Assembly (NCBI GenBank): GCA_004297945.1
Contig: SCRC01000060.1
Location: forward strand, 37,655 to 101,654
Length of the DNA stretch: 64,000 bases
Reading direction: 5' to 3'
Source of the DNA: Candidimonas sp.
Lineage (GTDB): Bacteria > Pseudomonadota > Gammaproteobacteria > Burkholderiales > Burkholderiaceae_B
A program made the position numbers and the translations under genes. Position 1 is the stretch's first letter, and each line of letters starts with the position of its first letter. Of the stretch, positions 1 through 25,152 are shown one piece after another. A model generated the notes under the pieces. The model saw nothing but the letters and a program-made list of their open reading frames with translations, made no database searches and had not been told where the DNA came from.

Positions 1-2
1 AC

Positions 3-407
3 GTCCCCGATCGCCACCTGTGTTACGCCGCCCAGGTCCTCACGCAGCAGATGTATCCCAAGATATTGAACAGTCTTCGTGAGCTTGCGGGTGGCGGGAT
101 GATCATGCTGCCGTCGTCCGCAGCGGATTTCGCCAATCCGGAAATCGCGGAGATGATCGACAAAACACAGCAATCGCCAGCGGCGAGCTCACGAGATCGA
201 GTGAAGTTCTATAAACTCGCATGGGACGCTGTCGGTTCAGAGTTCGGGTCGCGCCACCATCAATATGAAATGTTTTACGCCGGCGCCACGTTCGTGACCA
301 AGGGCCACTCATTCCGCACCTACGACTGGGGCAAATCGGAGGCCCTTGTCCAGGCCATGCTCGATTCTTACGAGCTTGAACCCGAAGCAGTCGCTGCGGT
401 AAATTAA
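3..407 (+). CDS. 4-hydroxyphenylacetate 3-hydroxylase (HpaB) family monooxygenase, C-terminal part; 5' end outside window
   Basis: Frame open from the window edge; translation ...YPKILNSLRELAGGGMIMLPSSAADFANPEI...KLAWDAVGSEFGSRHHQYEMFYAG resembles the HpaB-family C-terminal domain. Confidence 0.8.
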   Translation, partial: VPDRHLCYAAQVLTQQMYPKILNSLRELAGGGMIMLPSSAADFANPEIAEMIDKTQQSPAASSRDRVKFYKLAWDAVGSEFGSRHHQYEMFYAGATFVTKGHSFRTYDWGKSEALVQAMLDSYELEPEAVAAVN

Positions 408-425
408 ACTATCCGAGGAGTCATT

Positions 426-806
426 ATGCCAGTCAACAAAATTCACGACGAGTTCCACGCCATCGATTTATCCACTGGATGGGAGGTGCCCACCGGTTAC
501 CCGACCGGTATTGAGCAAAAAATTCTTTCTGGCGGTCTTGACGAGAAAGGGCGACGAGGCACGCGTACGCGGCTTTTGCGCTTCCAGCCAGGCGTTTTTA
601 CGACGGCACCGTTTTCGCATGATTATTGGGAGGAAGTCTACATGGTAAGCGGTGACCTTACCGTAGGCAATGACGCCAGCGGTAATGGCGGAGAGGCCTT
701 TGGCCCCAATACCTATGCGGTCCGTCCGCCCCACGCGAAGCATGGACCCTTCAAGTCCGAGAACGGTTGCATGCTTCTTGAGATTCACTACTTTGATCCA
801 GTCTAA
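426..806 (+). CDS. cupin-domain protein
   Basis: 126 aa ORF with cupin-like core (FSHDYWEEVYMVSGDLTVG...AVRPPHAKHGPF); 18 bp after preceding CDS. Confidence 0.75.
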   Translation: MPVNKIHDEFHAIDLSTGWEVPTGYPTGIEQKILSGGLDEKGRRGTRTRLLRFQPGVFTTAPFSHDYWEEVYMVSGDLTVGNDASGNGGEAFGPNTYAVRPPHAKHGPFKSENGCMLLEIHYFDPV

Positions 807-812
807 CCCATC

Positions 813-2165
813 ATGAAACGCACTCTTTCCCAACTGGCGGAAGATCTGTCATCTGGACGCACAACGTCCCGTACGTTGGTTGAGGAGTGTCTCAATAAAA
901 TAGACGCTCCTAATGGCGAGGGTTCAAGAGCCTTCGTGAAGGTCGATCGTGACGCGGCACTTGCGGCTGCCGTAGCGATGGACGAGCTTCGCGCAGTTAG
1001 ATTGGCTCCCTCGGCCTATGCTGGGATTCCAATTTCTGTCAAGGATCTGTTCGACCTGACTGGAGACCCGACGCCAGCCGGCTCGACCGTTCTGGCGCAC
1101 AGCGAGCCCGCTGTGCGCGACGCCTTGGCAATTGCCCGTTTGAGACGCGCAGGCTTTGTCGTTGTCGGACGAACCAACATGACGGAATTCGCTTTCTCTG
1201 GCGTTGGCCTGAATCCTCATTATGGGACTCCGGCTGCGCCGTTCGACCGTGCTACTCGTCGAATACCTGGAGGTTCATCTTCTGGTGCGGGAGTCTCGAT
1301 CTCAGATGGTATGGCCTATGGGGCCATCGGGTCGGATACCGGTGGCTCGTGTCGTATTCCGGCTGCATTATGCGGTGTGGTGGGCTATAAGCCAACGGCA
1401 GCGACTATCCCGTGTGAAGGGGCCTTTCCGCTGTCGCAGACCCTAGATTCGATTGGCTCGATTGCCAATAGCGTGGCCTGCTGTCGCGTACTCCACTATG
1501 TGATGAGTGGGCAACCGCTAACGGTCAGTGATTCGGCCATACTCTCGGGCTTGCGCATTGGTGTCCCTCAGGCTGTCGCGCTTGACGATATGGATACCCA
1601 TGTGGCGGCCTGCTTTGAGCAAGCGCTGAGCACATTGTCACGTGCAGGGGCGACACTACGTAAGATTCCTTTTCAGAGCCTCGTCAAGGTCGCACATATC
1701 AATCGAAAGGGTGGTTTTGCGGCTGCCGAAGCGTATGCCGTTCATCGAGCGTTGTTGGCATCGGCGGGAGACAAGTACGATCCTCGCGTGAAGCTTCGCA
1801 TTGAACGTGGCCGCAATCAGGATTGTGCCGACTACATTGACCTCGTTCGTGAACGTAAGGCCTTCGTCGCCGTGCTGCGCGAAGAGGTATCCGCGTTTGA
1901 TGTGATTGCGATGCCCACCGTTCCGATTATTGCGCCTCCCATCGAGAGTCTTGAAAAGGATGACGATGTCTTTACGCGCACGAATCTCTTGATGTTACGC
2001 AATCCCACGCTCATCAATATGATGGATGGCTGTGCGATTTCGCTTCCAATGCATGCGATCGGGCAGGCACCGGCAGGCCTGATGCTGGCCAAGGTTGGCG
2101 GCGAAGACGATCGCCTGTTTGCGATCGCCGCCGCGGTAGAGACTACGTTCGCCGAGACTCTTTGA
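813..2165 (+). CDS. amidase (amidase-signature family)
   Basis: 450 aa; GGSSSGAGVSISDGMAYGAIGSDTGGSCRIPAALCGVVGYKP signature. Confidence 0.92.
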   Translation: MKRTLSQLAEDLSSGRTTSRTLVEECLNKIDAPNGEGSRAFVKVDRDAALAAAVAMDELRAVRLAPSAYAGIPISVKDLFDLTGDPTPAGSTVLAHSEPAVRDALAIARLRRAGFVVVGRTNMTEFAFSGVGLNPHYGTPAAPFDRATRRIPGGSSSGAGVSISDGMAYGAIGSDTGGSCRIPAALCGVVGYKPTAATIPCEGAFPLSQTLDSIGSIANSVACCRVLHYVMSGQPLTVSDSAILSGLRIGVPQAVALDDMDTHVAACFEQALSTLSRAGATLRKIPFQSLVKVAHINRKGGFAAAEAYAVHRALLASAGDKYDPRVKLRIERGRNQDCADYIDLVRERKAFVAVLREEVSAFDVIAMPTVPIIAPPIESLEKDDDVFTRTNLLMLRNPTLINMMDGCAISLPMHAIGQAPAGLMLAKVGGEDDRLFAIAAAVETTFAETL

Positions 2166-2177
2166 TTGGCGATTGAT

Positions 2178-2861
2178 TCAGCCCTGGCGCGTGATATTGA
2201 CGGAAAACGATTCAATATGTGCGCGCATGGCCTGTTCTGCGAGATCAGCATCATGTTGCGCGATGGCGTCCACGATGGCGGTGTGCTCATCGCATATCCG
2301 TAGATGTTGTTCGTTTGTGCTCAGTGAAATAAACCACATCCGTGCAGAACGTTCGTGGAGGTTCTGTAGAAGATCGCCGAGGACAGCATTACGCGTGGCG
2401 CCTGCGATGAGAGAATGGAATTTCTGGTCAAGCTCAGAGAGGGTTCGTATGTCGTGGCTGTGAATAGCTACGAGCATGTCATCCAGAGAGTCTCTTAGCT
2501 TAGCGATGACATCCGGGCTTGCGCGTTCGGCTGCCCTGCGTACGGAGTAGATTTCGTTGACCAGCCGCACATCAATGATGTTGAATATTTCATCAAGGCT
2601 AACGGGTTTAACGATTGTGCCTTTACGCGGAATGACCTCTACGAGCCCGTCGCCCAGAAGACGATCCAGGGCCTGACGAATGGGTGTCCGGCCGACTGCA
2701 AGCTGGAGACTTAGTTCCGTCTCTGCCAGGACATCCCCTGGCCGTAAGGCGCAGGTGATGATCATTTTCTTGAGTGTGTCGTAGGCCTGGTCGCGCAGCG
2801 AGACGTGTTTCTTTGTGTCCGTTTGACGATAGCGGGATTTGGTTATGTGAGTGAGGGCCAT
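2178..2861 (-). CDS. GntR-family transcriptional regulator (FadR/FCD subfamily)
   Basis: N-terminal wHTH (LRDQAYDTLKKMIITCALRPGDVLAETELSLQLAVGRTPIRQALDRLLGDGLVEVIPRKGTIV) plus helical FCD-like C-terminus. Confidence 0.92.
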   Translation of the reverse strand: MALTHITKSRYRQTDTKKHVSLRDQAYDTLKKMIITCALRPGDVLAETELSLQLAVGRTPIRQALDRLLGDGLVEVIPRKGTIVKPVSLDEIFNIIDVRLVNEIYSVRRAAERASPDVIAKLRDSLDDMLVAIHSHDIRTLSELDQKFHSLIAGATRNAVLGDLLQNLHERSARMWFISLSTNEQHLRICDEHTAIVDAIAQHDADLAEQAMRAHIESFSVNITRQG

Positions 2862-2901
2862 CGGTGGAAAATTCGTGACAGAATTCCCCCATCGAGCGAA
2901 C

Positions 2902-3588
2902 TTAACCTTGAATGGGGAGCGCGGCTACATCATAACCGAAGTGAATACTGCGGCCCAATACCGGGTCTTCCAATTCAGCCTCAAAGCGACTGGCCGCTTT
3001 TATGCCGCCAATTGCTGGCATCGTTCCTCCAAACATTGCTGTGCCATCTGGCAAGATGCCGCTCGGATTCAGGCCCCGGATGAGTTCAAACGGAGCCAGA
3101 AGGGTACTGACAGGGCCTTCCTGGTAGAGGGTACGATGACCATCGATAGTGGCATGGCTGCGCAGAATCAGGGAGTCCCAGTGGGGCGCGACCTCGTCGA
3201 ACGGCCATACCGTTGATGCAATGGGTTTGTCACAGAGCTGTTTCGAGACGCTAATTCCATAGGTTTCAACTTGTCGATCCGTATGATCCGAGCCAACCCC
3301 CACATACGTTTTACCACCAAAAGTCAACAGTACTGTTTCAACCTCTCCACTGGAATTGGGCCCTTGATCTTCCACTGCGTGTTGAGTCGTCAATCGTGCC
3401 GCTGCTACGCGATAGTAGACTGGCGTCAACGCTGGGCGCTTCACCCCAAGTTTCTCCAATTCTGCCATGTGATGCTCCATGGCGGCTTTATCACGTCCCG
3501 TCCATCCTCCTATCACGAGCTGTTGAATCTCGACCCGTAGAGGATGTGTCCCATCGCGGCTTTCAACGGTTAGTTCCAGTTCTTTCAT
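2902..3588 (-). CDS. DUF2848 family protein
   Basis: 228 aa; VGVGSDHTDRQVETYGISVSKQLCDKPIASTVWP resembles the DUF2848 core motif. Confidence 0.75.
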   Translation of the reverse strand: MKELELTVESRDGTHPLRVEIQQLVIGGWTGRDKAAMEHHMAELEKLGVKRPALTPVYYRVAAARLTTQHAVEDQGPNSSGEVETVLLTFGGKTYVGVGSDHTDRQVETYGISVSKQLCDKPIASTVWPFDEVAPHWDSLILRSHATIDGHRTLYQEGPVSTLLAPFELIRGLNPSGILPDGTAMFGGTMPAIGGIKAASRFEAELEDPVLGRSIHFGYDVAALPIQG

Positions 3589-3664
3589 CGCTCCTGTCCT
3601 TCACAGATTTGGTCCACTCATGGATGGACGGCTTGTTGGTTGGTTGAAGTTAAATCAGCAGATC

Positions 3665-3710
3665 GTATCTTAACAATCCTTGTGAAATTTCACAAGGATT
3701 GTTAAGATAC
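3665..3710. promoter_or_regulatory. perfect 46-bp palindrome, candidate operator between divergent DUF2848 and ABC genes
   Basis: GTATCTTAACAATCCTTGTGAAA|TTTCACAAGGATTGTTAAGATAC, 23-bp arms, no spacer, in the centre of a 194-bp divergent intergenic region. Confidence 0.7.
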
Positions 3711-3782
3711 CGTTGGTGTGGAATTCGAGGCCACTTGTCGTCCGCTGCGAATACCCACCGACCCGAATCAAAATGTGAGGAG

Positions 3783-5078
3783 ATGATAATGAAGCTAAGT
3801 TGGACAGCCGCACTTGCGGCCTCTCTTGCTGTAATGGTCGCGCCCGCAGGCGCGCAGAACAAACCCGCCGCACTTGGGGTGGGGGTGTTCACTTTTGTTT
3901 CCGGCCCGGCCGCTGCATATGGCATTCCGGGTAAGAACGCCGCCGAGTTGATGATCGATGAGATCAATGCCAAGGGCGGAATTGCCGGAGTGCCCATTAA
4001 GGCTTCCTATGTCGATGAGGCTCAAGGCACTGAGGGCGTTATCACCGAGTACCGTCGCCTGACTGAGGATCCGTCTAATCAGGTCATGATTGCCGCACTT
4101 TCCAGTGGAAATTGCCTCGCGCTTAAACCCGTTGCGGAACAACTCAAGGTTCCTACCATCGCATGGAACTGTGACGCCCATCAACTTCTCGCAGACGGCA
4201 AAAGCCATTACTACTTTCGCCCCAACGGCAACACGATTCCAGAGTTTGTGGCCTATGCGGTATATCTGCTGCAGCGCAAGCCCGATGTGAAACGGATCGC
4301 TATCATCAACCCAGACTATGCATTCGGACATGATGGGGCACAGATTTTCAAGGCTGCCATGAAGGCGCTCAAGCCGGACGTGAAGATTGTCGCAGAGCTC
4401 TACCCAAAGATGGGAACGGCCAACTTTCAGACACAGATATCCAGGCTTCTGGCCGCTCACCCTGATGTGATTTTCTCGAATCTCTGGGGCGCAGATTTGG
4501 AAAATTTCGTCCGTCAGGCCTCTCCGCGTGGGCTGTTTTCCAGCAGCCAGGTAGTTCTCGCGCTTGGCGAGACGGTACTTCAGCGTGTGCCACTACCCGA
4601 TAATGTCATTGTGGGGGTGCTGGGCGACGGATGGTGGCTATCGCCCGACGCACAACGCGACCCTGCGACTAAGGCGTTTGTGGCGGCCTACAAGAAGCGA
4701 TATGGTCAGTATCCGGTATTTCCTTCAATGAAAATGGCCAATGCCATCGTATACATGAAGGCAGCCTACGAGGCCGCCATGAAGAAGAATGGCGAGAAGT
4801 GGCCCAGTCGCGATCAGTTGGCTGACGCAATGAGCGGGAGTAACGTCAGGACGCTGACAGGCGATACGGTTACTCGCAAGGACCACGAAGGCGTTGTCGA
4901 TCAGATTATCGGCATCACGACAAAATCACCGGATTACAAGTTCCCCATCATTAGCGAGATGGTGCGCTACAAGGGAGACTCACTGATTCCCCCGTCGGGT
5001 AAGGATGCTATGGGGTGGGTGGCATCGCTCAAGCCTAGCTTCCTTGATGCTCAACCCAAGCCCGGTAGTTACAAGTAA
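3783..5078 (+). CDS. branched-chain amino acid-type ABC transporter substrate-binding protein
   Basis: Signal peptide MIMKLSWTAALAASLAVMVAPAGAQ; periplasmic-binding-protein type-1 (LivJ-like) sequence; ORF-track start at 3699 lies inside the palindrome, so 3783/3789 is more plausible. Confidence 0.88.
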   Translation: MIMKLSWTAALAASLAVMVAPAGAQNKPAALGVGVFTFVSGPAAAYGIPGKNAAELMIDEINAKGGIAGVPIKASYVDEAQGTEGVITEYRRLTEDPSNQVMIAALSSGNCLALKPVAEQLKVPTIAWNCDAHQLLADGKSHYYFRPNGNTIPEFVAYAVYLLQRKPDVKRIAIINPDYAFGHDGAQIFKAAMKALKPDVKIVAELYPKMGTANFQTQISRLLAAHPDVIFSNLWGADLENFVRQASPRGLFSSSQVVLALGETVLQRVPLPDNVIVGVLGDGWWLSPDAQRDPATKAFVAAYKKRYGQYPVFPSMKMANAIVYMKAAYEAAMKKNGEKWPSRDQLADAMSGSNVRTLTGDTVTRKDHEGVVDQIIGITTKSPDYKFPIISEMVRYKGDSLIPPSGKDAMGWVASLKPSFLDAQPKPGSYK

Positions 5079-5145
5079 TACGGCTCACTTGCCGCTGGGA
5101 TGGCTTTGGTAGCCCCGGCGGCAAGTGGTTAAGCAGGAGCAATCA

Positions 5146-6045
5146 ATGCTTGATGCAATTCTTCCCATTATGGTGGATAGCCTAGCGAGTGCCGCACTGA
5201 TCTTCTTTGTCGCGGTTGGCTTGACGCTAGTGTTCAGCGTCTTACGCGTCCTAAACGTTGCTCATGGAAGCTTTTATTCGATTGGCGCGTATGTCGCCGC
5301 GTCGACCTGTCTGTGGCTCGTTTCCTCGGGGCTTAGTCCCTGGCTGACGTTTCCCATGCTTATCCTGAGTGCGGTGCTTGTCGCTGCATTGTTGGGGCCA
5401 CTCGTGGAAGCGACGCTGATACGCTGGACTTTCGGTAAGTCCGAAGCGGTCCAGATTCTGATCACCTTTGGCCTATTTTTGATTCTGGAAGATCTGCAGC
5501 GAATCGTGTTTGGTGTCAACTCCCTGGCCCAAGACACCCCTATGCAGCTTCTAGGCTCGACCACGATCGGTGGCGTTGCCTATCTCAATTATCAGCTTTT
5601 GCTGATCGCCCTCGCAATTGCCGTCGTGATCGGGCTGCGGTTGATGCTAGCCAAAACGCGCATTGGGCGATTGCTTACGGCGGTAGTCTTTGACCGGGAA
5701 ATGGCCTTGAGTGTGGGTATCAATACGAATCGCCTCTTCCTGCTGGCCTTTACTTTGGGTGTTTTCCTGGCTGCTTTGGGAGGGGCGCTTGCGGCACCCA
5801 CGTCGGGTGCCGCACCGGGCCTGGGTGCGGAGACAATAGTGCTTGCTTTTGCGGTCGCTGCGATCGGCGGACTTGGGCAGATCGAGGGTGCCGCGTTGGC
5901 TGCGGTTATTGTTGGCGTCGTGCGCGTGCTAGCCATTTATTTTGCGCCTTCTCTTGAAGCCGTTGCGCCCTACGTTGTGATGTTGGTTGTCCTGCTGGTG
6001 AGACCCTATGGGCTCTTCGGCACCACTCAGGCCAGAAGGATATGA
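5146..6045 (+). CDS. branched-chain amino acid-type ABC permease (LivH-like)
   Basis: Hydrophobic; GLTLVFSVLRVLNVAHGSFYSIGAY motif; AGGAGC upstream of ATG 5146. Confidence 0.9.
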   Translation: MLDAILPIMVDSLASAALIFFVAVGLTLVFSVLRVLNVAHGSFYSIGAYVAASTCLWLVSSGLSPWLTFPMLILSAVLVAALLGPLVEATLIRWTFGKSEAVQILITFGLFLILEDLQRIVFGVNSLAQDTPMQLLGSTTIGGVAYLNYQLLLIALAIAVVIGLRLMLAKTRIGRLLTAVVFDREMALSVGINTNRLFLLAFTLGVFLAALGGALAAPTSGAAPGLGAETIVLAFAVAAIGGLGQIEGAALAAVIVGVVRVLAIYFAPSLEAVAPYVVMLVVLLVRPYGLFGTTQARRI

Positions 6046-6986
6046 CTGCCATGCGTCAATCTCAAACTTGCTTGCTGCTTGCCGCCGTTCTGTGTGTCAT
6101 GGCATTTGTGCCTTTCGCCCCGGAATGGATACAGTTCGTTCTGACCTTGGCGATCGCTAAAGGCTTCGTCGCATTGGGTGTCGCAATTCTTCTGCGTGCG
6201 GGACTGATCTCCTTGGGCCATGCGATGTTTTACGCCATCGGTGCCTATGCCATTGCGTTCGTCGCTCAGATGGGGGTTACAGACTTCGTTGCACTCCTTG
6301 TCGTCGGCATTCTGGTATCCGCTCTGGTCGGGTTGGTCGTTGGCGCATTTTTAGTGCGCTACCGTGCAATCTTCTTCGCTATGCTGAATCTGGCGATCTC
6401 GATGGTGCTCTATGCTCTGGTTTCCAAGCTGTACAGTCTGACGGGAGGCTCCGATGGAATGCCATTGGCTACACCGACCTTTTTCGGCGTCGCTGTGGCA
6501 AAGCCTGATTTCGACACGGTACTTTATTACATCGCGCTGGTGTTGATGGTTGGCCTTGGATATCTGGTGCACCGATATTGGAAGAGCCCGCTTGGGCATG
6601 CGCTTTCTGCCATTCGAACCAATGAATTGAGGCTTGAATACCTGGGTGTATCAGCTCGTAACGTACTCTTGATCGCTTATGTGGCTTCAGCAGCGCTTGC
6701 CGGAGTCGGTGGCGTCATCACGGCCTGCGCAGTTGGGCACATTCTTCCGGACTTTGCCTATTGGACGGAATCGGCGCATTTTGTGTTGGTTGCGGTACTC
6801 GGTGGCATCGGTGGAGGAGCGGGTCCGTTTATAGGTTCCTTTTTCCTGGAATTGCTGCATTCTGCATCGATTAACATCACGGATGCGTGGAACCTGATCA
6901 CAGGGATTGCGCTCATCGTCGTCATTGTCTTCCTACCGAGCGGCCTATACGGTCTGATTCGACGTCGCGAGGAGAACAAGTTATGA
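6042..6986 (+). CDS. branched-chain amino acid-type ABC permease (LivM-like)
   Basis: Hydrophobic; RAGLISLGHAMFYAIGAYAIA, GGSDGMP; 4-bp overlap with LivH-like gene. Confidence 0.9.
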   Translation: MTAMRQSQTCLLLAAVLCVMAFVPFAPEWIQFVLTLAIAKGFVALGVAILLRAGLISLGHAMFYAIGAYAIAFVAQMGVTDFVALLVVGILVSALVGLVVGAFLVRYRAIFFAMLNLAISMVLYALVSKLYSLTGGSDGMPLATPTFFGVAVAKPDFDTVLYYIALVLMVGLGYLVHRYWKSPLGHALSAIRTNELRLEYLGVSARNVLLIAYVASAALAGVGGVITACAVGHILPDFAYWTESAHFVLVAVLGGIGGGAGPFIGSFFLELLHSASINITDAWNLITGIALIVVIVFLPSGLYGLIRRREENKL

Positions 6987-7726
6987 CCCCCCCCCTCCTA
7001 CAAGCGAAGGACTTGCATCTCTCCTTTTACGGTGTCACTGCGGCTGACGGCGTCAACCTTGAAGTTCGCGAGGGTGAGTTCGTTGCAATCATAGGCCCGA
7101 ATGGATCGGGTAAGACGACATTCCTCAATTTGTGCACTGGCTATCTCAGACCAACTTCTGGAGATGTCTACTTGGATGGCGCGCCAATTACTGCAATGGC
7201 ACCACGCACAATTGCGCATCGTGGGATCTCGCGGGCCTTTCAGATCCCGCAGTTGTTCCACGACCAGACTGTACTGGAGAACTTGATGATCGCAGTATCT
7301 GCGAAGCGAGGGATTTGGGGCTGGTTTAATCCGCTGGTTGCTTTCGGACGTCAGGAAGAGGCACGTGACCTGCTGGATCTCGTCGGCTTGGGCTGTGATG
7401 CAGACCGGCTCGCTGTGGCCCTTCCAGAAGGACGACGTAAGCTACTGGACATTGTCATCGCACTCGCCTTGAAACCGCGTCTCGTATTGTTGGACGAACC
7501 GACGAGCGGAGTCAGTACCATTGAGCGCTTCGCACTGATGGAGACGCTGATGACAGCCTTGCGTTGTGCCCAGACTACCGCACTTTTCGTGGAGCATGAC
7601 ATGGATATAGTCCGACGCTACGCTGATCGTGTTTTGGTCTGGGATTCAGGAAAAGTCATAGCCGAAGGGGCTCCCTCCGATGTTTTCAACAATCCGGAAG
7701 TTCTGCGAAAAGTAGTGGGGGCCTAG
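6983..7726 (+). CDS. ABC transporter ATP-binding protein (LivG-like)
   Basis: Walker A GPNGSGKTTF, Walker B LVLLDEPTSG; start ATG at 6983 overlaps LivM stop. Confidence 0.9.
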   Translation: MTPPLLQAKDLHLSFYGVTAADGVNLEVREGEFVAIIGPNGSGKTTFLNLCTGYLRPTSGDVYLDGAPITAMAPRTIAHRGISRAFQIPQLFHDQTVLENLMIAVSAKRGIWGWFNPLVAFGRQEEARDLLDLVGLGCDADRLAVALPEGRRKLLDIVIALALKPRLVLLDEPTSGVSTIERFALMETLMTALRCAQTTALFVEHDMDIVRRYADRVLVWDSGKVIAEGAPSDVFNNPEVLRKVVGA

Positions 7727-7728
7727 AC

Positions 7729-8436
7729 ATGCTGCATGTGAAAGATGTGAATGTTGCCATTGCCGGTATCCAAGTTCTTCGCGGTGTATCGTTACATGTA
7801 CTATCCGGGAAGACGACCATCCTGATTGGTCGGAATGGGGCTGGGAAAACGACAACATTACGCGCGATCATGGGTCTGCTGCCGGTGCAGGCTGGTACTA
7901 TCGTAATGAATAATGAGAATATTGGCTTGACGGCCGCTTATCGCCGTGCGAGCCAGGGTATTGGCTTCGCACCGGAGGACCGCCGTTTGGTGCCGGATTT
8001 TTCCGTCGAAGACAACATCACGCTGCCAGCACTGGCACTGGGCCTGCCGGCAGCGGAACGTTTATGTCGTCTAGAGGAAATCTATACGCTTATGCCTCTA
8101 CTTGGGGCCATGCGCAAACGCCCTGGCGGCGCTGTCTCTGGTGGGCAGGGGAAGATGGTGGCCCTCGGTCGTGCGCTTATGGTGGCGCGCAACGCCCTAC
8201 TGCTGGATGAACCCTTTCAGGGACTGGCACCAGCACTGGCTCTTGAGTATGTACATATTCTGGGTGTGTTGAGACACAACCGACCAGATCTCGCCATGCT
8301 GATCACGGAATCGACGCCTGCCCTCCTTGATGAGATAGCCGATGAAACTCTCCAGATCGAACGGGGTGAGATATGCCGGGAGGTTGCGGCGGATATTCCG
8401 AAGTCAGCCCAGGACAATGCAACCTCTCTGCGATGA
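7729..8436 (+). CDS. ABC transporter ATP-binding protein (LivF-like)
   Basis: Walker A GRNGAGKTTT, VSGGQGKMVALGRALM signature, LLLDEPFQGL. Confidence 0.9.
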   Translation: MLHVKDVNVAIAGIQVLRGVSLHVLSGKTTILIGRNGAGKTTTLRAIMGLLPVQAGTIVMNNENIGLTAAYRRASQGIGFAPEDRRLVPDFSVEDNITLPALALGLPAAERLCRLEEIYTLMPLLGAMRKRPGGAVSGGQGKMVALGRALMVARNALLLDEPFQGLAPALALEYVHILGVLRHNRPDLAMLITESTPALLDEIADETLQIERGEICREVAADIPKSAQDNATSLR

Positions 8437-8570
8437 CTCTGCAAGTGGCTCAACATTGGCACGGTTGGATTGGGGATACCACCCTGAATCATTTGAATCG
8501 ATGGCATCAAGGGATGATTGTAGCGATGGCGTCATCGAATGCGCCGCTTTGAGAGACGCGCAAACTAAAT

Positions 8571-8591
8571 TCCTCCAGATTTTCTGGAGGA
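8571..8591. other. short stem-loop downstream of LivF-like gene
   Basis: TCCTCCAGA-TTT-TCTGGAGGA, 9-bp arms; no U-tract. Confidence 0.4.
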
Positions 8592-8662
8592 TACTTACAC
8601 GACACAGTATGTAAAAATAATAACAAAAGGCGCTTGGATCGATCTCTTATGGAAGTACAAAT

Positions 8663-9592
8663 GTGATGATCAGCCCCGCGCGATGGGTAGCCGCTTCTGA
8701 TTACCCGGCCACGACAATTCCAGGGCTGGGAATGACCCGCTTTTCCGAAAGGCTGGCCGAGCTTTCTATAGGTAGACTCCAAGTAGATCTGCAATTCGAA
8801 GTTGGACGTGGCACCACGGAGATCTTGAATGATGTTAGCCTTGGTCGCACACAGATAGGAGATCTGTACTGTGCCCCTTTGGGAAGCGTGGAGCCGATCT
8901 TTAGTCTTGCGTCTCTGCCGTTTGTCACCACGTCTATTTTTCAGGCGCGGAGCCTGCTCGAAATTGCGCGCACGACGTATGAGCGACGGATTTCTCAGCT
9001 TGGGGGGCGCTTGTTATATGTATCACCGTGGCCTTCGACCGGTCTGTGGTCTGCGGTAGATATTCATTCTTTAGAAAAATTTTCTCGCCTACGTGTCCGT
9101 ACTTACGATGACATGTCGGCATTGGTAATAACTGCGGCTGGCGCGAATGCGGTTAGCATTCCCTTTGGCAAGATTTTTGAAGATCTTGAGGCAGGGCGAC
9201 TCCATGCGGTAATCTCATCTGGCGATGGTGAGGCAGGGCGTCGATTGCAGAAATACTTGCCTTATTTTTATAACATTCAATACGCGACACCGAACTCATT
9301 TTTGGTTGTAAACAGCGCGGCATATGCCTCACTATCCTCCGATTTAAAAGCTGCTGTGAATCAGGCCGCGCTCCATACGGAGCTTGAGCTTTGGGGGCAG
9401 ATTTCGTCCCGTAGCGAGAGAAATCGCAACGAGATGATAGCCAGTGGAGTTAGCATAAGAAGTGATCTTATTCCGGAGATCCGAGGCGTGCTGAACGCGA
9501 GTGCCAGGGACGCTATTAATGGCTGGAAGGCAGCTACTTATCCCTTAGGTGGTACCTTGCTGCAGATGTATTTGGATTCGGTTAATTCATGA
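8663..9592 (+). CDS. TRAP-type (DctP-like) substrate-binding protein lacking a signal peptide; possibly N-terminally truncated
   Basis: Translation matches DctP-like pattern (FSERLAELSIGRLQVDLQF...LPFVTTSIFQARSLLE...GRLLYVSPWPSTGLWSA...LRVRTYDDMSALVITAAGANAVSIPFGKIFEDLEAGRLHAVIS); begins within the mature domain; no TRAP permease nearby. Confidence 0.7.
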   Translation: MMISPARWVAASDYPATTIPGLGMTRFSERLAELSIGRLQVDLQFEVGRGTTEILNDVSLGRTQIGDLYCAPLGSVEPIFSLASLPFVTTSIFQARSLLEIARTTYERRISQLGGRLLYVSPWPSTGLWSAVDIHSLEKFSRLRVRTYDDMSALVITAAGANAVSIPFGKIFEDLEAGRLHAVISSGDGEAGRRLQKYLPYFYNIQYATPNSFLVVNSAAYASLSSDLKAAVNQAALHTELELWGQISSRSERNRNEMIASGVSIRSDLIPEIRGVLNASARDAINGWKAATYPLGGTLLQMYLDSVNS

Positions 9593-9593
9593 G

Positions 9594-9700
9594 TGTTAGT
9601 GCAGACCGAAAACTGACCCACTTATAGGGGTTGTGCCGATTCAAAATTGACCCAGGTGTTTTACTCGCCCTGCCTAATTTTCAGGCAGAGGCAAATGTGT
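9594..9700 (+). mobile_element. terminal-end remnant of an IS21-like element
   Basis: TGTTAGTGCAGACCGAAAACTGACCCAC...TTCAAAATTGACCCAGGTG...CTGCCTAATTTTCAGGCAGAGG; same organisation as 12985-13090; no transposase ORF follows. Confidence 0.55.
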
Positions 9701-9753
9701 AAAGAACGGATCATGCGAGGAAACGCGCCTCAAACATCAAGAAGGCTTGGCAT

Positions 9754-9960
9754 TCAAGGTTCCGACGCTCTGGCCCAGCCCAGCCGAAACGAATGCTCCA
9801 CCGTGGCCCGCACGCTCGCCTTCCAATGCTCAATGCGATTGATCGCTTTCTTGATCGCACCTTCAGACAACGCGCACCGCTGGCTCGGCGTCATGGCCAC
9901 GTGCCATTTTACCGTGGGGATCCTTGTTCTCGATGCGCTTCCCAGCGCCCACATTTCAAA
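9754..9960 (-). pseudogene. IS5-like transposase C-terminal remnant
   Basis: Minus-strand peptide VKWHVAMTPSQRCALSEGAIKKAINRIEHWKASVRATVEHSFR resembles the KA-VRAKVEHPFR C-terminal motif of IS5-group transposases. Confidence 0.6.
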
Positions 9961-9999
9961 CAGGATGAAGCACTGGCGGTCGAATGCGAGCCAATCACT

Positions 10000-10185
10000 G
10001 TGTGCTGTATTTGCGTGATGCTTAAAGGGCATCCTCTGGTGCACAAGAAAGTCGTGACGCCTAAGGATCTCGACGGCCTTCCTTTCATTTTCCTAAACCG
10101 GGATTATATGACGCACTTTCGCATCGGCAACGCGTTCGCTCCTCATGAAAGATTTTGCGCGGTTACTCAAATCGGAGCTCGATAA
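10000..10185 (+). pseudogene. LysR-family effector-domain fragment
   Basis: VCCICVMLKGHPLVHKKVVTPKDLDGLPFIFLNRDYMTHFRIGNAF resembles the LysR substrate-binding domain (GHPLA-K--VTP-DL-G-PFI); no HTH part in frame. Confidence 0.55.
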
Positions 10186-10385
10186 TTATGTCGCCTGATC
10201 CCATGGATGACACGGATTGTTGGCGGAGTAACGTCCCCTTGTTGAACAGCCCTGGAATTCGGCGAAGTATGAGGAAATTTATTTATACGGCTGTGATATT
10301 GTGTCGGACACTAAACAGGCTTTGAGCCGTTACTTCGGTTTTCATAATCGTCGATAACTGCATTTGACGCCCCCCAGACAAGCTC

Positions 10386-10763
10386 CTAGACAGGATCGAG
10401 CAGCGGACGGTTCTTGCGAAATGCTTGCTTGCGCACGATCTTGCCGTCGCGAAGCGTAAACAGATCCACGCCATCCGCATGAACACGCTTGCCGTCGGCC
10501 TGAGTCGCAACGAAGGTCGACTCCGAGACGATCCGGTCTCCCGCAACAAAGTGGTTCTCATTCAGCCATCGGACATCGGGCATCGATCCCCACGTTTTCT
10601 CAAACTGCTCTCTGACAGCTTGCTTCCCCTCGATGCGGGTACCATACGCCTCCGATCCGGAGACAGTGTCGAAAACAATACCGTCGTGAAAGTAAGTCAT
10701 GATCACGTCGATGTCGTGGCGGTTGAAAGCATCGAAAAGTTTCTGCATCTCGTTAACGGTCAT
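10386..10763 (-). CDS. SnoaL-like / nuclear transport factor 2 family protein
   Basis: 125 aa MTVNEMQKLFDAFNRHDIDVIMTYFHDGIVFDT...HADGVDLFTLRDGKIVRKQAFR. Confidence 0.8.
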   Translation of the reverse strand: MTVNEMQKLFDAFNRHDIDVIMTYFHDGIVFDTVSGSEAYGTRIEGKQAVREQFEKTWGSMPDVRWLNENHFVAGDRIVSESTFVATQADGKRVHADGVDLFTLRDGKIVRKQAFRKNRPLLDPV

Positions 10764-10959
10764 CTACTTGTTCCTTTAATTGTGGATGTTGGATTCATCT
10801 CGTCCGACGCCTCGCGCAATTCTCGGCTCTCCGGAGCGTGGCAGGGTACGGGATACATTTTTTACCGTCATAGCGCTATCAGCTAGTACCGCTCCGTTTA
10901 GTGCCCCATAACTGTATCGAGGCCGGCAAGTGCGATCCGTATCCGTGCTGCCATAGAGT

Positions 10960-11084
10960 CTATTCTTGACTGCGTCACAGAAACCCGCAAACGTTTTATT
11001 TGTCGATCACGCATTAGCATGACTTATCCATGGATTCGGCGGTTGTATAACCTATCTCTACCCTGCAAACTGATCGGTGCTAGC
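10960..11084. repeat. copy A of a diverged ~125-bp direct repeat flanking the FAD oxidoreductase gene
   Basis: CTATTCTTGAC...AGAAACCCGCAAACGTTTTATTTGTCG...ACGCATTAGCATGACTTATCCATGGATTCGGC...GATCGGTGCTAGC aligns to 12632-12756 in the same orientation. Confidence 0.75.
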
Positions 11085-11180
11085 CAGCGGCAGTGTCTGG
11101 ACACCGCCTCTTGAGGGAACAATACAAGCTCGGGCCTCAACCCGACACGGCGCTGCTTTCCGACTGAAGTCCGACCCGCA

Positions 11181-12557
11181 TCAGACGATTTTATCCAGCA
11201 ACGAAAAATAGGTGTAAAGCGCTCGCTGCCCCAGTCTGCGAATCGGCCTCAGCGGATGGCTAAGCAGCGGCGAGTTGAATATGGGCAGGTCGGAATCGGC
11301 CAGGCTTTTGCCCGCAATCAAGATCGCCAGTTGTTTCGAGGCATACGCTGAGAACGATACGCCGTTGCCGCTGTACCCTTGGGAATAGAACACCTGCTGG
11401 CTTCGGTCGGGCTGCACGATGCGCGGCATCATGTCGTGGGAGATATCCATCCAACCGTGCCAGAAAAAAGGCGTTTCGATACCTTTTAGGGCAGGAAACT
11501 TGCGGGCAATGGCCTCCTGTACGATCCGCAGATGCTTGGGGTTCTCTGAGTCCGCTCCGCTGATGGCACTGCGTGAGCCAATCTGTAGGCGTTTCTCGGG
11601 CAGGTATCGGTAATAGTAACGGAGCTTACGAGTATCGGTGACGAGTATGTTTGAGCGGAAACCGCAGACCTTTACCTCCTCATCAGTCAGCTCACGCGTC
11701 ACTGCCGAATTGGCCATGATGGGCATGTTTTTATAGGCGGTGAGCTTGTGCAGATTCGGACTGGTATAGCCGGCGGTACAAATGCCCACAGCACGCGCTC
11801 GGACGGTTCCCTCCGGTGTGTGCAGATGATGCACGCCGGCCTCGGTCGTCCAGGCCTGAACGGGGCTCCCTGTGTGTATTTTGGCACCCAATCGGCGTGC
11901 GATACGAGCGTAGCCGTAGGCCAATTTTAGGGGTTGCACGGCGATACCCACTGGCTCGAGCATGGCGCCGTGAGACTCCTGGTCACCGATGTATTCGTTG
12001 AGAACAGTATCACGGCCAAGAAGGCGAGTCTTATAGCTCAGCACTTCGTTACACAAGCGTGACTCCGCCTCCAGCCCTCTTAATGCTTTCTCGCTATGGG
12101 CGATGAGCAGATTGCCTTCGCCATGCGGCTCACAGTCGATTTCTGGGTCTTCCGTCATAGCCCTAAAGACTTCATAACCCTCCAAGCTGTTGGCGTGTAA
12201 TCGACGGGCAATATCGACGCCCCACTTTTTCACCCACTGGCTGCGGCTCAAGCGCCCCCAAGCTAGATGGCCCTGCCCACCGTTGCGACTGGTGCAGCCC
12301 CAGCCAATCTGGTTAGCCTCCAACACGACTGCCTTTATGCCGTGTTCACGGGCGAGGAATAGCGCGGTAGCCAGACCCGTGAAGCCGCCGCCGATCAGGA
12401 CTACGTCAACATCCATGTCAGCTCTTACAGGTCCATCATCCTCCGGTGGATCCCCCGCGTGATAACGCCAATAGGTCGGCGAGTAATCCACCGCCGTGCC
12501 AGGTGATGTGTCATAAAGTGGATCGTAATATGGATTATAAGGTTGTGGAGTAGGCAT
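11181..12557 (-). CDS. FAD-dependent oxidoreductase (DAO / gamma-glutamylputrescine oxidase-like)
   Basis: 458 aa; Rossmann VVLIGGGFTGLATALFLAREHGIKAVVLEANQIGWGCTSRNGGQGH; GYSGNGVSFS near C-terminus. Confidence 0.88.
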   Translation of the reverse strand: MPTPQPYNPYYDPLYDTSPGTAVDYSPTYWRYHAGDPPEDDGPVRADMDVDVVLIGGGFTGLATALFLAREHGIKAVVLEANQIGWGCTSRNGGQGHLAWGRLSRSQWVKKWGVDIARRLHANSLEGYEVFRAMTEDPEIDCEPHGEGNLLIAHSEKALRGLEAESRLCNEVLSYKTRLLGRDTVLNEYIGDQESHGAMLEPVGIAVQPLKLAYGYARIARRLGAKIHTGSPVQAWTTEAGVHHLHTPEGTVRARAVGICTAGYTSPNLHKLTAYKNMPIMANSAVTRELTDEEVKVCGFRSNILVTDTRKLRYYYRYLPEKRLQIGSRSAISGADSENPKHLRIVQEAIARKFPALKGIETPFFWHGWMDISHDMMPRIVQPDRSQQVFYSQGYSGNGVSFSAYASKQLAILIAGKSLADSDLPIFNSPLLSHPLRPIRRLGQRALYTYFSLLDKIV

Positions 12558-12631
12558 GCGGTTTATTCATCTTGGTCAATGCTAAAAGCGGTTATGACGC
12601 GCTTCCTGCGTTTTATTAACTAATGTGGAAT

Positions 12632-12756
12632 CCATTCTTGGCTAAATGATAGAAACCCACAAACGTTCTATTTCTCGCTTACGCATTAGCTAAGCTTATC
12701 CATAGATTCGGCCGTTGTAAGAACCCTCTCCATCCCGCAAACCGATCGGCGCTCGC
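12632..12756. repeat. copy B of the diverged ~125-bp direct repeat
   Basis: CCATTCTTGGC...AGAAACCCACAAACGTTCTATTTCTCG...ACGCATTAGCTAAGCTTATCCATAGATTCGGC...GATCGGCGCTCGC; aligns to 10960-11084. Confidence 0.75.
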
Positions 12757-12984
12757 TGTATCGGATGGGCACATTTTGTGATTTGCAGTGCGGCAGCAGT
12801 CACCGCATCCAACTTCGCCAGCTTGATGGATTTGTTGTTGTGCTCAGCAAAAACAAGGACTGTCATTCAGATCGCCTCGGACTCAAACTTGAGCGTCTGG
12901 ATCAGCGTTGCGACATTCGACACCGTCATGCATGCCAAACGCCGGGGTGACTCGTTCACATGGGGGCGTTCTGACACGCGATAT

Positions 12985-13090
12985 TGTTGATATCGGTCAA
13001 AAATTGACCATGTTTTGAGGTTTGTGTCGCTCCAAAATTGACCAAGGTATTCAATCGATCTGCTTATTTTTTAGGCAGAGAATAGAGATG
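12985..13090 (+). mobile_element. terminal-end remnant of an IS21-like element
   Basis: TGTTGATATCGGTCAAAAATTGACCATG...CTCCAAAATTGACCAAGGT...CTGCTTATTTTTTAGGCAGAG; homologous and same orientation as 9594-9700. Confidence 0.55.
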
Positions 13091-13433
13091 ATCCTCTGAT
13101 ACCAATGCCGCAGCCCTTTGACGCATTTGTGGACAAGCCCGTGGGGGTAAGCAGTATGTGCCTCGTATCGGTGGCCTCGAACCTTACCGGTTCCGCCGCA
13201 GTACGAAGCGGGCGCGGACAAAGATGAAAGTGCGTGAGGATGAATAACAGCGCGCAGCGAAGACAGAAACGGAAATCGAGGAGTCTGAACCGTTCTTAGG
13301 CAAAACCTTGAACTGACCCAAAAAGTTGGAACCGATCTAACCTTTTGGGGACCCCTCGCTAATCTGGGAGCGCGGAACAACTGATATTCAGCGGACTATC
13401 AGATCTTGAGAAATGAAAGAAGGCGCCGAAAAG

Positions 13434-14333
13434 TCATGACTTCCCTTTCCAGGGGATCAGCTTCATTTCCAGCTTGCGCATCAAGATGTCAGTGGCGTAT
13501 CCGATGATGCCTATGACGATAATTCCCATGAGTACGATATCGGTCTGGAGGAATTTGGAAGCTACCATGATCATCATGCCCACGCCCTTGTCGGCGGCCA
13601 CCATTTCTGCCGCCACGACAGTCCCCCAGCACACGCCCAGGGCCACGCGCATGCCGGTCATGATCTCGCCCAGCGCGTTGGGAATGATCACGTATCGCAG
13701 AATTTGCGGCTTGGACGCCCCCAGCGAATAGGCGGCGAGAACTTTGTTGAGGCTGACCCGAGATGCACCTGCCCTTGCGGCCAGTACCATGACCCACAAC
13801 GCGGCGAGGAACAGCAGAATGATCTTGGATTTTTCGCCAATGCCGTACCAGATAATGATCAGCGGAATCAGTGCAAGCGGCGGAATCGGACGGGCGAACT
13901 CCACAATAGGGTCGAGCCAGCCGCGTAGCGGACCAACCAAGCCCATCGCCAGTCCGAGTGGAATGCCAATCACGCAAGCGAAGAAGAAGCCCACGAAAAT
14001 ACGATACATTGACCAAAAGATGTGTTGCCAAAGTGTGTAGTTTCTGTACCCTACATTGGCTACTTGAATGAAGCTATCCCAGACGGCATGGGGACCTGGC
14101 AACCAGATCGGACTGACCCAACCTGTCGCAGTGATCAGTTGCCAAGTGGCAAGTAATACGACCACTGAAAAAAAGCTCCAAGCCCGGCTGGGTTTAAGGG
14201 CCGTGACGTCCCCAAACGTCACGATTTTTCGCTCAATCAGCCCGTTGCTGTAATTGCCGAAGAATATTTTTAGTTTTTGTCCGAAATGGTTGCCGGACTG
14301 ACGGACCAGTGTGGAATGTGACACTTTAGACAT
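13434..14333 (-). CDS. ABC transporter permease (TauC/SsuC-like)
   Basis: Hydrophobic; EFARPIPPLALIPLIIIWYGIGEKSKIILLFLAALWVMVLAARAG. Confidence 0.88.
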   Translation of the reverse strand: MSKVSHSTLVRQSGNHFGQKLKIFFGNYSNGLIERKIVTFGDVTALKPSRAWSFFSVVVLLATWQLITATGWVSPIWLPGPHAVWDSFIQVANVGYRNYTLWQHIFWSMYRIFVGFFFACVIGIPLGLAMGLVGPLRGWLDPIVEFARPIPPLALIPLIIIWYGIGEKSKIILLFLAALWVMVLAARAGASRVSLNKVLAAYSLGASKPQILRYVIIPNALGEIMTGMRVALGVCWGTVVAAEMVAADKGVGMMIMVASKFLQTDIVLMGIIVIGIIGYATDILMRKLEMKLIPWKGKS

Positions 14334-15147
14334 GTGAATCTCCCTTAGATGACCCTTGCAAACCCATGATTTCGTCTTCCATTCCCCAAATCATGGAAAG
14401 GATCTCTTCACGCTTCTCCACGAACTCCGGCTGGCTCCGAATCTCGCGTGGATTCATGCTCATGCTCTGTTCGGCGTAGGGCAGACGAAACTCTCGCACG
14501 ATGCGGCCCGGTCGCGGCGCCATGACTATCAGTCGCTCCCCCAGGAAAAGGGCTTCGTCTACGGAGTGCGTGATCAACACAATCGTCTTGCCGGTTTCCT
14601 TCCAGAGTTTAAGCACCAGCCCTTGCATTTTTTCGCGCGTAAGTGCATCCAGCGCACCCAATGGCTCATCCATCAAAATCACATCGGGGTCGTTGGCCAG
14701 GCACCGCGCCAGCGCGACACGTTGCTGCATTCCACCTGACAACTCGTACACTGATTTCCTAGAGAAATCTTGCAGGCCGACCTTCTTGAGCAGGTTCGCG
14801 ACGATACGATCCACCTCCATTGCCGGCGTACCCTTCATTTTGGGACCGAACCCGACGTTGTCCTTGACCGACATCCATTCAAACAACGCGCCTTGCTGAA
14901 ACACCATGCCGCGCTTGGGACTGGGACCGCGTATAGCCGCACCACCTAACGTCAGTAGGCCTGAACTATGGGCAAGAAAGCCGGCCATGATGTTGAGCAT
15001 GGTGGACTTGCCGCAGCCCGACGGTCCCAATACAGTGACCAGCTCGCCGCTTTGAATCGTAAGATCAACGTTTTGCAGTGCATGCACCGCGCTGCCGTCC
15101 GGTAATTTGAACGTCATGGAGATGCCACTCAATACGAACTGAGCCAT
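14326..15147 (-). CDS. ABC transporter ATP-binding protein (TauB/SsuB-like)
   Basis: Walker A GPSGCGKSTM, LSGGMQQRVALARCLA, VILMDEPLGALDALTREKMQ. Confidence 0.92.
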   Translation of the reverse strand: MAQFVLSGISMTFKLPDGSAVHALQNVDLTIQSGELVTVLGPSGCGKSTMLNIMAGFLAHSSGLLTLGGAAIRGPSPKRGMVFQQGALFEWMSVKDNVGFGPKMKGTPAMEVDRIVANLLKKVGLQDFSRKSVYELSGGMQQRVALARCLANDPDVILMDEPLGALDALTREKMQGLVLKLWKETGKTIVLITHSVDEALFLGERLIVMAPRPGRIVREFRLPYAEQSMSMNPREIRSQPEFVEKREEILSMIWGMEDEIMGLQGSSKGDSHV

Positions 15148-15251
15148 AAGTAAAACCTCTATATCAGCAAAAATTTTAAAAGTAAATGTTCACAGTGCAC
15201 TCCCCGAGACAGCAGCCGACTTGCTTCCACTCGGGAAATCGGTTGCACGGC

Positions 15252-16247
15252 TTATTTCACGTTCTTATAGAACTTGTCACTGAACACCGCAGAATAGCTT
15301 GACAAGGCAGACGGCATTTGCTTTTGCTGGACCAGAAAATCAGCTACTCCTTTGGTGTAGGCCTGCACGGTGCCGTCAAGGTAGTGCGACAGTTGTTTAT
15401 CCTTCGTGGGGAAAGTGAAGAGCTTGATCATGGCAGCACCTGCCTTAGCATTCATGCCGGCAGCCTTGGAAATCACGGGCATCGCCTGGTCGGGGTGGTC
15501 AGTCAGGTATTTGGCAGACCTGTCGGTTACGGCCAGAAACTTGGTGACCAGCTCAGGATTTTTCTTGGCGAAGTCATCGGTCACAGTGATTAGGTCGAAT
15601 ACGCGAATGCCAATAGCTTGTTGCTCGCGTGCGGTCATCAACACCGACCCGAATTTCTTCATGCGTACCAGAGCGCCCCCCCAGCCACAAGCCATCGCCA
15701 CGTCGCCGCGGGCGAGCGCTGCAGCGCCGTCCGCAGGCGCCATATCCACAATTTTCACTTTTAAGGGGTTAACGCCCAGATGCGACAATATGCGCAGCAG
15801 TTTGTAGTGCGATACTGAGCCAATGGGTACGGCGACCGTCTGCCCTTCCAGCTTCTTGGCGTTGTTTTTGGTAATGCCAGTTCCCTTGCGCACCACACAG
15901 TTATCGTTCTCGTCGTACGCCGCTGCAATGCCAACCGCCTCGATTGGCAAACCCTGACTGGTTGCAACAATGAAGGGGATCAGTCCCTGACTGTAGGATA
16001 TTTGAATGTCGCCAGAGGCCATAGCCGCAGACATGGCCGTTCCGGCGTCAAAGGCGCGCCAATTGACCTTAACTCCCAACTCCTTGTCATACCAGCCGTT
16101 GACTTGTGCGAACAGATTGGCAGTCGGCCATTCCAGGAAATAGCCTACGGTAATTTCTTTGGGCGTCTGTGCGTAGGCGCTTGAAAAGCTGGCAATCGCC
16201 AGAGCGACAGCACCCATTGCCTTGCAAAAAATTGTCTTCATCTTCAT
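15252..16247 (-). CDS. taurine/aliphatic-sulfonate-type ABC substrate-binding protein (TauA-like); substrate unproven
   Basis: Signal peptide MKMKTIFCKAMGAVALAIASFSSAYAQ; ITVGYFLEWPTANLFAQVNGWYDKELGVKVNWRAFDAGTAMSAAMASGDIQISYSQG. Confidence 0.85.
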   Translation of the reverse strand: MKMKTIFCKAMGAVALAIASFSSAYAQTPKEITVGYFLEWPTANLFAQVNGWYDKELGVKVNWRAFDAGTAMSAAMASGDIQISYSQGLIPFIVATSQGLPIEAVGIAAAYDENDNCVVRKGTGITKNNAKKLEGQTVAVPIGSVSHYKLLRILSHLGVNPLKVKIVDMAPADGAAALARGDVAMACGWGGALVRMKKFGSVLMTAREQQAIGIRVFDLITVTDDFAKKNPELVTKFLAVTDRSAKYLTDHPDQAMPVISKAAGMNAKAGAAMIKLFTFPTKDKQLSHYLDGTVQAYTKGVADFLVQQKQMPSALSSYSAVFSDKFYKNVK

Positions 16248-16328
16248 TGCCTTTCCTTTAAAACGTCAAACAGATTGAGAAATCAGTTTTTCATGTGGGC
16301 GCACTGCCTGCATCGCAGCTCAATAAAT

Positions 16329-16475
16329 CTAGCTGATGCTGAAGTGGGGCAGGTTGCCAGCAGCGTGCGAAGTGGAGCCTGACATCAGCCCTGGCGTTTC
16401 CACCAACCTCACATCGTTCCGATCCGCCCTGGCTAGACGGTAATGCGCGCTGACCTTTGCGATACCGTCTCCGAT
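16329..16475 (-). pseudogene. N-terminal remnant of a dimethylglycine/sarcosine dehydrogenase-like FAD oxidoreductase
   Basis: IGDGIAKVSAHYRLARADRNDVRLVETPGLMSGSTSHAAGNLPHFSIS then stop; resembles I-GGGI-GVS--Y-LA----DVVLVE---L-SGST-HAAG with decayed GxGxxG. Confidence 0.65.
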
Positions 16476-16590
16476 TTCATATATTGACCTCTCGGTTAGC
16501 AACAGCGTTTGGAACCCAGCCAGGCTTTGCTTCCTGCTTGGAGTCGATGCTAAGCTATAGCACTTAAGCGAGTAAGCTACAAAAACCACC

Positions 16591-16619
16591 CCCATGGATA
16601 AGGCATACTTATCCATGGG
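16591..16619. promoter_or_regulatory. inverted repeat, candidate LysR operator
   Basis: CCCATGGATAAG-gcata-CTTATCCATGGG, perfect 12-bp arms, between the TauA-like gene (-) and LysR gene (+). Confidence 0.55.
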
Positions 16620-16772
16620 CTAACATGTTGATTTGCATTGTTTCTTTACCTCGGCTCTGTGACGGGCGGCCAAGGCACCAAGGGAAAACACCAACCCAAC
16701 AGCAAGGACTCTTCTCTCGACAACACGCAGGTTGACCTCACATTAATTACTACAACCTCAACATGACGCAGC

Positions 16773-17681: not shown

Positions 17682-17950
17682 ACAGTCCAATCATAGGCCG
17701 GAAGTGCGTTCGGTTCGCTGGGCAGTGCAGATATTGAACATTTTTCGACCAAGAGCGGGCTTGGGGAAGCGGAAGTTTAACGTTCGTCGTGTTCGCCCAC
17801 TACCGTAGACGCCGACAAAGTAATGCGTCGATTCTCTAATTCGGGTAGCGCATTAACTTCATCCGCATATTTCGTGGTCCCGTTCATGCGTGGTGGACTG
17901 ACCAGTTGTACGTCTATTGCTTTGAGGTTGTTGGCGCGTTGTTCAATCAG

Positions 17951-17978
17951 GTTTTCTATGCATCGAGGCATAGAAAAC
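17951..17978. other. perfect stem-loop, function unknown
   Basis: GTTTTCTATGC-ATCGAG-GCATAGAAAAC, 11-bp arms. Confidence 0.5.
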
Positions 17979-18109
17979 ATTAATGTATCAGTCCAGTTTG
18001 CCTCTAAAGTCAATAAGTTTTACGAGGGAACGCGATCAATTTCATTTTAAGCAAGCTCATTACAGGGGTTTTAGGGAGGTATAAAGCAATTGGTGCCAGA
18101 AAGAATTGA

Positions 18110-18224: not shown

Positions 18225-18307
18225 ACGGCCTAGTATTCGCCTGTGGCGAAACTGGGCAGACCGAGATTCTAGCATGGATGGAAGGCAGGCTTGAATGGGG
18301 GGCGGCT

Positions 18308-18380
18308 ATGGCACCCACAAGGGGTGCCGCTACATGATTTATGCGCAGGTTTTTGTAGCGGCACCCCTTGTGGGTGCCAT
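18308..18380. repeat. REP/BIME-like repeat, head-to-head pair
   Basis: ATGGCACCCACAAGGGGTGCCGCTACA ... GTAGCGGCACCCCTTGTGGGTGCCAT. Confidence 0.9.
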
Positions 18381-18403
18381 TGCACCATGTACCACAACAG
18401 GCC

Positions 18404-25147: not shown

Positions 25148-25152
25148 CTCAT

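Follow-up and report, generated by a model that had tools for sequence, protein, structure and literature searches.

A perfect 46-bp palindrome between divergent operons of Candidimonas: a putative GntR/FCD operator with two predicted mirror-image promoters

A perfect palindrome of 46 bp separates two divergent operons in a Candidimonas genome; its centre is linked to the presence of a GntR/FCD regulator gene in related loci and its arms change in pairs between species. We consider it fairly probable that this element is a compact switch, with the operator of a GntR/FCD regulator in the centre, two mirror-image promoters directed outward and arms that were perhaps copied by template switching.

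RESULTS

The palindrome and its genomic context

In the window, i.e. the whole 64-kb stretch of DNA that was analysed, the palindrome GTATCTTAACAATCCTTGTGAAATTTCACAAGGATTGTTAAGATAC lies among the following features:

51–407, plus strand: HpaB-like flavin monooxygenase, 3′ end; the gene starts left of the window
426–806, plus strand: cupin, same catabolic cluster
813–2165, plus strand: amidase, same catabolic cluster
2178–2861, minus strand: GntR/FCD regulator, proposed to bind the core (Pfam; homologs aligned)
2902–3588, minus strand: DUF2848 protein, predicted fumarylacetoacetate-hydrolase-like fold (domain match, structure prediction and structure match)
3665–3710, no strand: perfect spacerless palindrome, 46 bp (sequence check and chance estimate)
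3789–5078, plus strand: periplasmic binding protein of a Liv-type ABC transporter, first gene of the rightward operon
5146–8436, plus strand: Liv-type permeases and ATPases, four genes

The two 23-nt arms show 100% complementarity with no spacer, exactly as an earlier note on this DNA had described them. That note had also placed the palindrome in the middle of the divergent intergenic region, and its centre (3687.5) is indeed only 1 bp off the midpoint between the start codons of DUF2848 and the transporter binding protein, which are 76 nt and 78 nt away, respectively. The next-longest perfect spacerless palindrome within the window spans 20 bp, the longest in 20 shuffles of the window 22 bp, and the chance expectation for palindromes of at least 46 bp in 64 kb is about 1e-9. 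The 2.99-Mb assembly contains a single copy, and the many genomic copies of a REP or mobile-element palindrome were therefore not found; plasmids and viral contigs yielded no match. An assembly artefact was ruled out as the source, since six other genomes carry near-perfect palindromes of 36–46 bp at the equivalent position.

The regulator combines a GntR HTH (PF00392, E 1.2e-17) with an FCD domain (PF07729, E 2.6e-29), and the FCD-typical D-x3-H, H, H pattern is conserved in its alignment. For the DUF2848 protein, a high-confidence structure prediction (pLDDT 94) gave matches to enzymes of the fumarylacetoacetate-hydrolase fold; a literature search found no paper naming DUF2848. The Liv-type ABC transporter is complete (3789–8436). 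The plus-strand operon ending at 2165 encodes a flavin reductase, the HpaB-like monooxygenase, the cupin and the amidase; it starts left of the window, with a MarR gene divergent from it. The cluster resembles a unit for the catabolism of an aromatic or heteroaromatic amide-type compound.

The same cluster order was found in Bosea, a genome labelled Methylobacterium sp., Shinella, Rhizobium, Ectorhizobium, Paracoccus, Roseovarius and others, the closest clusters being those of the Bosea clade (mostly 68–84% protein identity; MarR 55–57%). The sole congener compared (G186) lacks the DUF2848 cluster gene, and its synteny with the window starts only at about 18.1 kb, with none over positions 1–18100. 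The cluster therefore seems to be a block that is foreign to the Candidimonas lineage or variable within it, with its nearest relatives in Bosea. A misbinned contig was ruled out, as a part of the window some 26 kb away shows 82–84% identity to a congener. The window also carries copies of a palindromic, REP-like repeat, TGGCACCCACAAGGGGTGCCGCTACA or its GCAGCC variant, some of them arranged in 33-bp and 20-bp tandem arrays, at 18305–18385, 25112–25152, 28856–29024, 37116–37178, 38816–38998, 43252–43396, 48509–48764 and 50015–50077; the first 18 kb are free of it, and the first copies coincide with the start of synteny.

A conserved core linked to the GntR/FCD regulator

In order to compare relatives, 80 DUF2848 loci from one scan of species-representative genomes were used, plus further genomes. 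The aligned DUF2848 upstream regions have a 14-bp core in common, TGTGAWATWTCACA, which in the window is located at the centre of the palindrome:

3681–3694, no strand: operator core TGTGAAATTTCACA, proposed GntR/FCD dimer site (GntR co-occurrence and alignments)

With the core counted as present at up to two mismatches and the GntR homolog defined as the gene following DUF2848, the core preceded DUF2848 in 32 of the 33 distinct upstream sequences that have an adjacent GntR/FCD homolog versus 5 of 141 without one (Fisher p 1.5e-28, a value inflated by the relatedness of the loci). The association holds in alpha- and betaproteobacterial loci and in different gene arrangements. Among the five core-bearing loci without an adjacent homolog, three (L060, L105 and L109) have one further off in the locus; for the other two (L148 and L151), 1.5 kb was read on either side. 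On account of this co-occurrence, the core is very probably the operator of the adjacent GntR/FCD regulator. The earlier note had made its proposal depend on conservation upstream of orthologous clusters, and in the form of the core such conservation is seen.

A second core precedes the flavin reductase/HpaB/cupin/amidase operon in many clusters of rhizobial and rhodobacterial genomes, with examples in Shinella, Rhizobium, Paracoccus and Roseovarius. Such second copies in other lineages lie at L048 11740, L049 12580, L052 11558, L053 11753, L071 11724, L221 1844, L222 572, L223 16772 and L224 4100; upstream of this hpaBC-type operon the core is missing in the window and in the Bosea-clade clusters, in which the operon has a divergent MarR gene. 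Among the DUF2848-gntR loci that lack a divergent transporter, many have a core that overlaps the −10 element of a TTGACA-N16-TAYTGT promoter of DUF2848. This is the usual layout for a repressor and fits repression.

The half-sites of the core are spaced GT-N8-AC, and the GT-N2/3-AC spacing typical of the FadR subfamily was not found; NanR and BioR are known exceptions in spacing within this subfamily. TGTGA-N4-TCACA, unusual for FadR-type sites, resembles the half-sites of CRP/FNR, so the core might be read by another regulator, for example a protein of the CRP/FNR type or the MarR protein of the cluster. We regard this as highly improbable: the half-site spacing is 4, compared with 6 in CRP sites, presence of the core tracks the gntR gene, and several core-bearing loci (e.g. 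L080 and L081) have a GntR gene but no MarR match in the stretch scanned. Furthermore, whole-genome scans of 13 genomes gave only 1–5 near-matches to the core each, which argues for the site of a local regulator and not a global one.

The recognition helix reads GRTPIRQA in the regulators of the window and the Bosea clade; most regulators with other core flanks have GRTPVHQA, or F, I or L at that position. This difference may possibly reflect a change in specificity. An exact search for the half-site within the family gave, outside the window, no more matches than chance would produce, because other members of the family do not share the cluster. A literature search for the core sequence found no paper on this site as judged by titles and abstracts. 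As a separate observation, locus L079, whose DUF2848 gene has no adjacent GntR homolog, carries an unrelated near-perfect palindrome of 50 bp, TCTCCCCCTTTTTCGGGCAGTTGCTTGCAACTGCCCGAAAAAGGGGGAGA, about 100 nt upstream of DUF2848.

Predicted mirror-image promoters in the palindrome

Matrix scoring predicts one promoter on each strand of the palindrome:

3680–3685, plus strand: predicted −35 TTGTGA of the transporter promoter, inside the core (matrix scoring)
3703–3708, plus strand: predicted −10 TAAGAT of the transporter promoter, right outer arm, 17-nt spacer (matrix scoring)
3690–3695, minus strand: predicted −35 TTGTGA of the DUF2848-gntR promoter, inside the core (matrix scoring)
3667–3672, minus strand: predicted −10 TAAGAT of the DUF2848-gntR promoter, left outer arm, 17-nt spacer (matrix scoring)

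The top sigma-70-like promoter in both directions was TTGTGA-N17-TAnnnn in all seven long-arm sequences, one from the window and six from Bosea-clade clusters; its −35 lies within the core, its −10 within the outer arm. Since TTGTGA is fixed by the operator itself, the evidence for a promoter comes from the −10 element and its spacing. The −10 score at the 17-nt offset gave p values of 0.002–0.025 per sequence against other positions in the same intergenic region. The hexamers are TAAGAT in the window, TATAGA in L044, L047 and L202, TATGGT in L045 and TATGAT in L046, whereas L206 has two different but equally good ones, TATAGT on one side and TATGAT on the other. Positions 1–2 of the −10 (TA) are invariant in the seven sequences, and the letters that vary in pairs at positions 18–21 from the centre are −10 positions 3–6. 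The arms of L206 do not match, and it still has a good −10 in either arm, which suggests that the −10 elements, and not pairing as such, are under selection. Scoring relied on an approximate E. coli matrix, and −35/−10 pairs at 16–18 spacing over the operator, seen in both directions by matrix scoring, were not found by a stricter consensus scan, which returned no promoter. For these reasons the promoters remain predictions, and the palindrome may be described as one operator common to two mirror-image divergent promoters.

Transcription would start about 7 nt past each −10, so that neither mRNA would contain the palindrome. This bears on the strong hairpin that the earlier note had expected in the 5′ leader of the transporter mRNA. 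A transcribed palindrome would form a very stable 21-bp stem with an AAUU loop (−55.8 kcal/mol, z −7.6), and changes in the arms occur on both sides, as would be expected if an RNA hairpin, or an extruded DNA hairpin, was maintained by selection on its stem. However, the best promoters of all seven sequences put the starts just outside the palindrome in both directions, and the hairpin would then not form in the mRNA. Unpaired outer pairs are tolerated in L206, most orthologs have lost the stem, and relatives outside the clade have the core without the hairpin. The Rfam search gave no match to a known structured RNA, and the stem followed by a U-run that marks an intrinsic terminator or attenuator was not found in the transcript, a terminator-like U-run being absent in the window and in L044. 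We therefore think a role as hairpin very unlikely, and the proposed leader structure is not supported.

Distribution and paired changes of the long arms

The palindrome appears to consist of two layers: the core recurs in relatives, and the long arms were found only in this bacterium and the six clusters of the Bosea clade. Within these seven sequences the inner 24 bp are invariant, except for the central four letters:

3676–3699, no strand: clade-specific extended core ATCCTTGTGAAATTTCACAAGGAT (invariant in the window and the Bosea clade except for the central four letters)

When 338 genomes from the Bosea order and 200 from the order of the window were searched for the extended core as ATCCTTGTGA-N4-TCACAAGGAT, the only exact matches were the known ones; the remaining matches carry 2–3 mismatches. 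The outer arm letters differ among species, yet a change in one arm is accompanied by a change in the other: of the 23 pairs, 7 are changed on both sides (13 cells), 96.9% of cells are paired, and none of 500 shuffles was as good, in a set of seven related sequences that reflects few independent events. Complementarity of the arms ends sharply at letter 23 from the centre. The exception is L206, with unequal arms and unpaired outer pairs; a recombinant origin of this asymmetry was considered and found no clear support in gene-by-gene identities. In other clusters with a divergent transporter the arms show little symmetry, and only the transporter side has a conserved, T-rich stretch that resembles TTTTAT. 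In relatives with shorter arms the right, transporter-side flank resembles the long arm more than the left one does (p 0.024, computed after removal of near-duplicates), which suggests that the right arm was copied in inverted form to give the left one.

The symmetry could also be selected for protein contact, the whole 46 bp being a site for two regulator dimers, or a tetramer, side by side. FCD proteins can be tetramers (Atu1419, PMC7797058) and extra half-sites near GntR sites have been described (PMC4494728); moreover, the 24 bp are almost invariant in the clade, and the recognition helix carries R (GRTPIRQA) at a position that H occupies in most relatives. Against this, the outermost 5–6 letters and letter 14 from the centre are free to differ among species provided that the two arms still match, unlike what constraint by a sequence-reading protein would produce, and relatives outside the clade keep regulator and core without the long arms. 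The earlier note had suggested two overlapping dimer sites for the nearby GntR/FCD regulator. Its choice of regulator is upheld by the co-occurrence of core and gntR; the overlapping sites are not, as conservation covers a single 14-bp core and all six Bosea-clade orthologs have AAAA/TTTT in place of the outer ACAA/TTGT boxes seen in the window. We judge an extended protein site to be unlikely.

Replication errors offer another explanation of the paired changes. Template switching converts imperfect to perfect inverted repeats in E. coli (PMC7202029) and produces compensatory changes (PMC8794818), so a short operator might have been lengthened and kept perfect by quasipalindrome template-switch mutation, with arms that have no function. 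The mirrored changes at letter 14, in the promoter spacer, and at letters 22–23, beyond the −10, are in line with this, having no meaning for a promoter. Nevertheless, the invariant TA and the −10-like hexamer at 17-nt spacing on both sides of all seven sequences, the asymmetric L206 included, speak against it, and functionless arms seem rather improbable to us. Homogenisation of the arms by template switching is plausible in its own right, and it would explain the paired change of the spacer letter and of the letters beyond the −10.

DISCUSSION

The switch that we favour combines operator, promoters and template switching. Its 14–16-bp centre would be the operator for the GntR/FCD regulator encoded two genes away. 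Each strand would carry a sigma-70-type promoter with its −35 in the operator and its −10 in the opposite outer arm, 17 nt apart, and the mirror-image pair would fire outward, into DUF2848-gntR on one side and the Liv-type transporter operon on the other. Bound to the core, a dimer of the regulator would mask the two −35 elements and shut down the two operons, acting as a repressor rather than an activator, until a catabolic ligand probably releases it; ligand and sign of regulation are assumptions taken from the family. As gntR sits in the left operon, it would be autoregulated. The promoter arm on the transporter side was probably copied, inverted, to the other side by template switching, a process that would then keep the arms alike.

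A stronger version holds that the divergent promoter pair itself was made by inverted copying, in that template switching around the GntR operator duplicated a promoter arm and still keeps the −10 elements identical. We put this forward tentatively and with more doubt than confidence. If true, both operons would keep matched promoter strength while the sequence drifts, and replication errors would be a route to creating and maintaining bidirectional regulation. The natural series from short core to 46-bp palindrome allows template switching as a builder of divergent promoters to be tested. The comparison of relatives also separates the putative protein-read core from arms that are symmetric for another reason, and it yields a predicted binding site and regulon for the GntR/FCD regulator of a DUF2848/amidase/HpaBC-type catabolic cluster.

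A long palindromic operator is known from E. coli, where bioO lies between the divergent bioA and bioBFCD promoters. There, too, a long dyad extends over both promoters and one regulator shuts both; in bioO the outer parts are protein contacts, whereas the conserved part of the present palindrome is its centre, and the regulator comes from a different family. Closer in family are the FadR-type (FCD) GntR operators in divergons, usually TKGT-N2/3-ACMA (Suvorova 2015, PMC4494728). These likewise are single palindromic sites mid-divergon beside the regulator gene, with proposed control of both operons, but they are short, in contrast to the GT-N8-AC core and the 46-bp perfect symmetry described here. 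Atu1419 of Agrobacterium fabrum, a tetrameric FCD regulator that also controls a catabolic cluster from short palindromes at promoters, binds 10-bp ATGTATACAT sites 190 bp apart with looping and has no long palindrome (PMC7797058). Finally, DNA symmetry lets a short element drive transcription both ways in the bidirectional promoters of E. coli, which have one common −10 and starts most often 18, 10 or 23 bp apart (Warman and Grainger, PMC12825309). The two separate predicted −10 elements (3667–3672 and 3703–3708) ruled out this shared type for the palindrome, in which the −35 elements would lie together in the operator and the starts about 55 bp apart.
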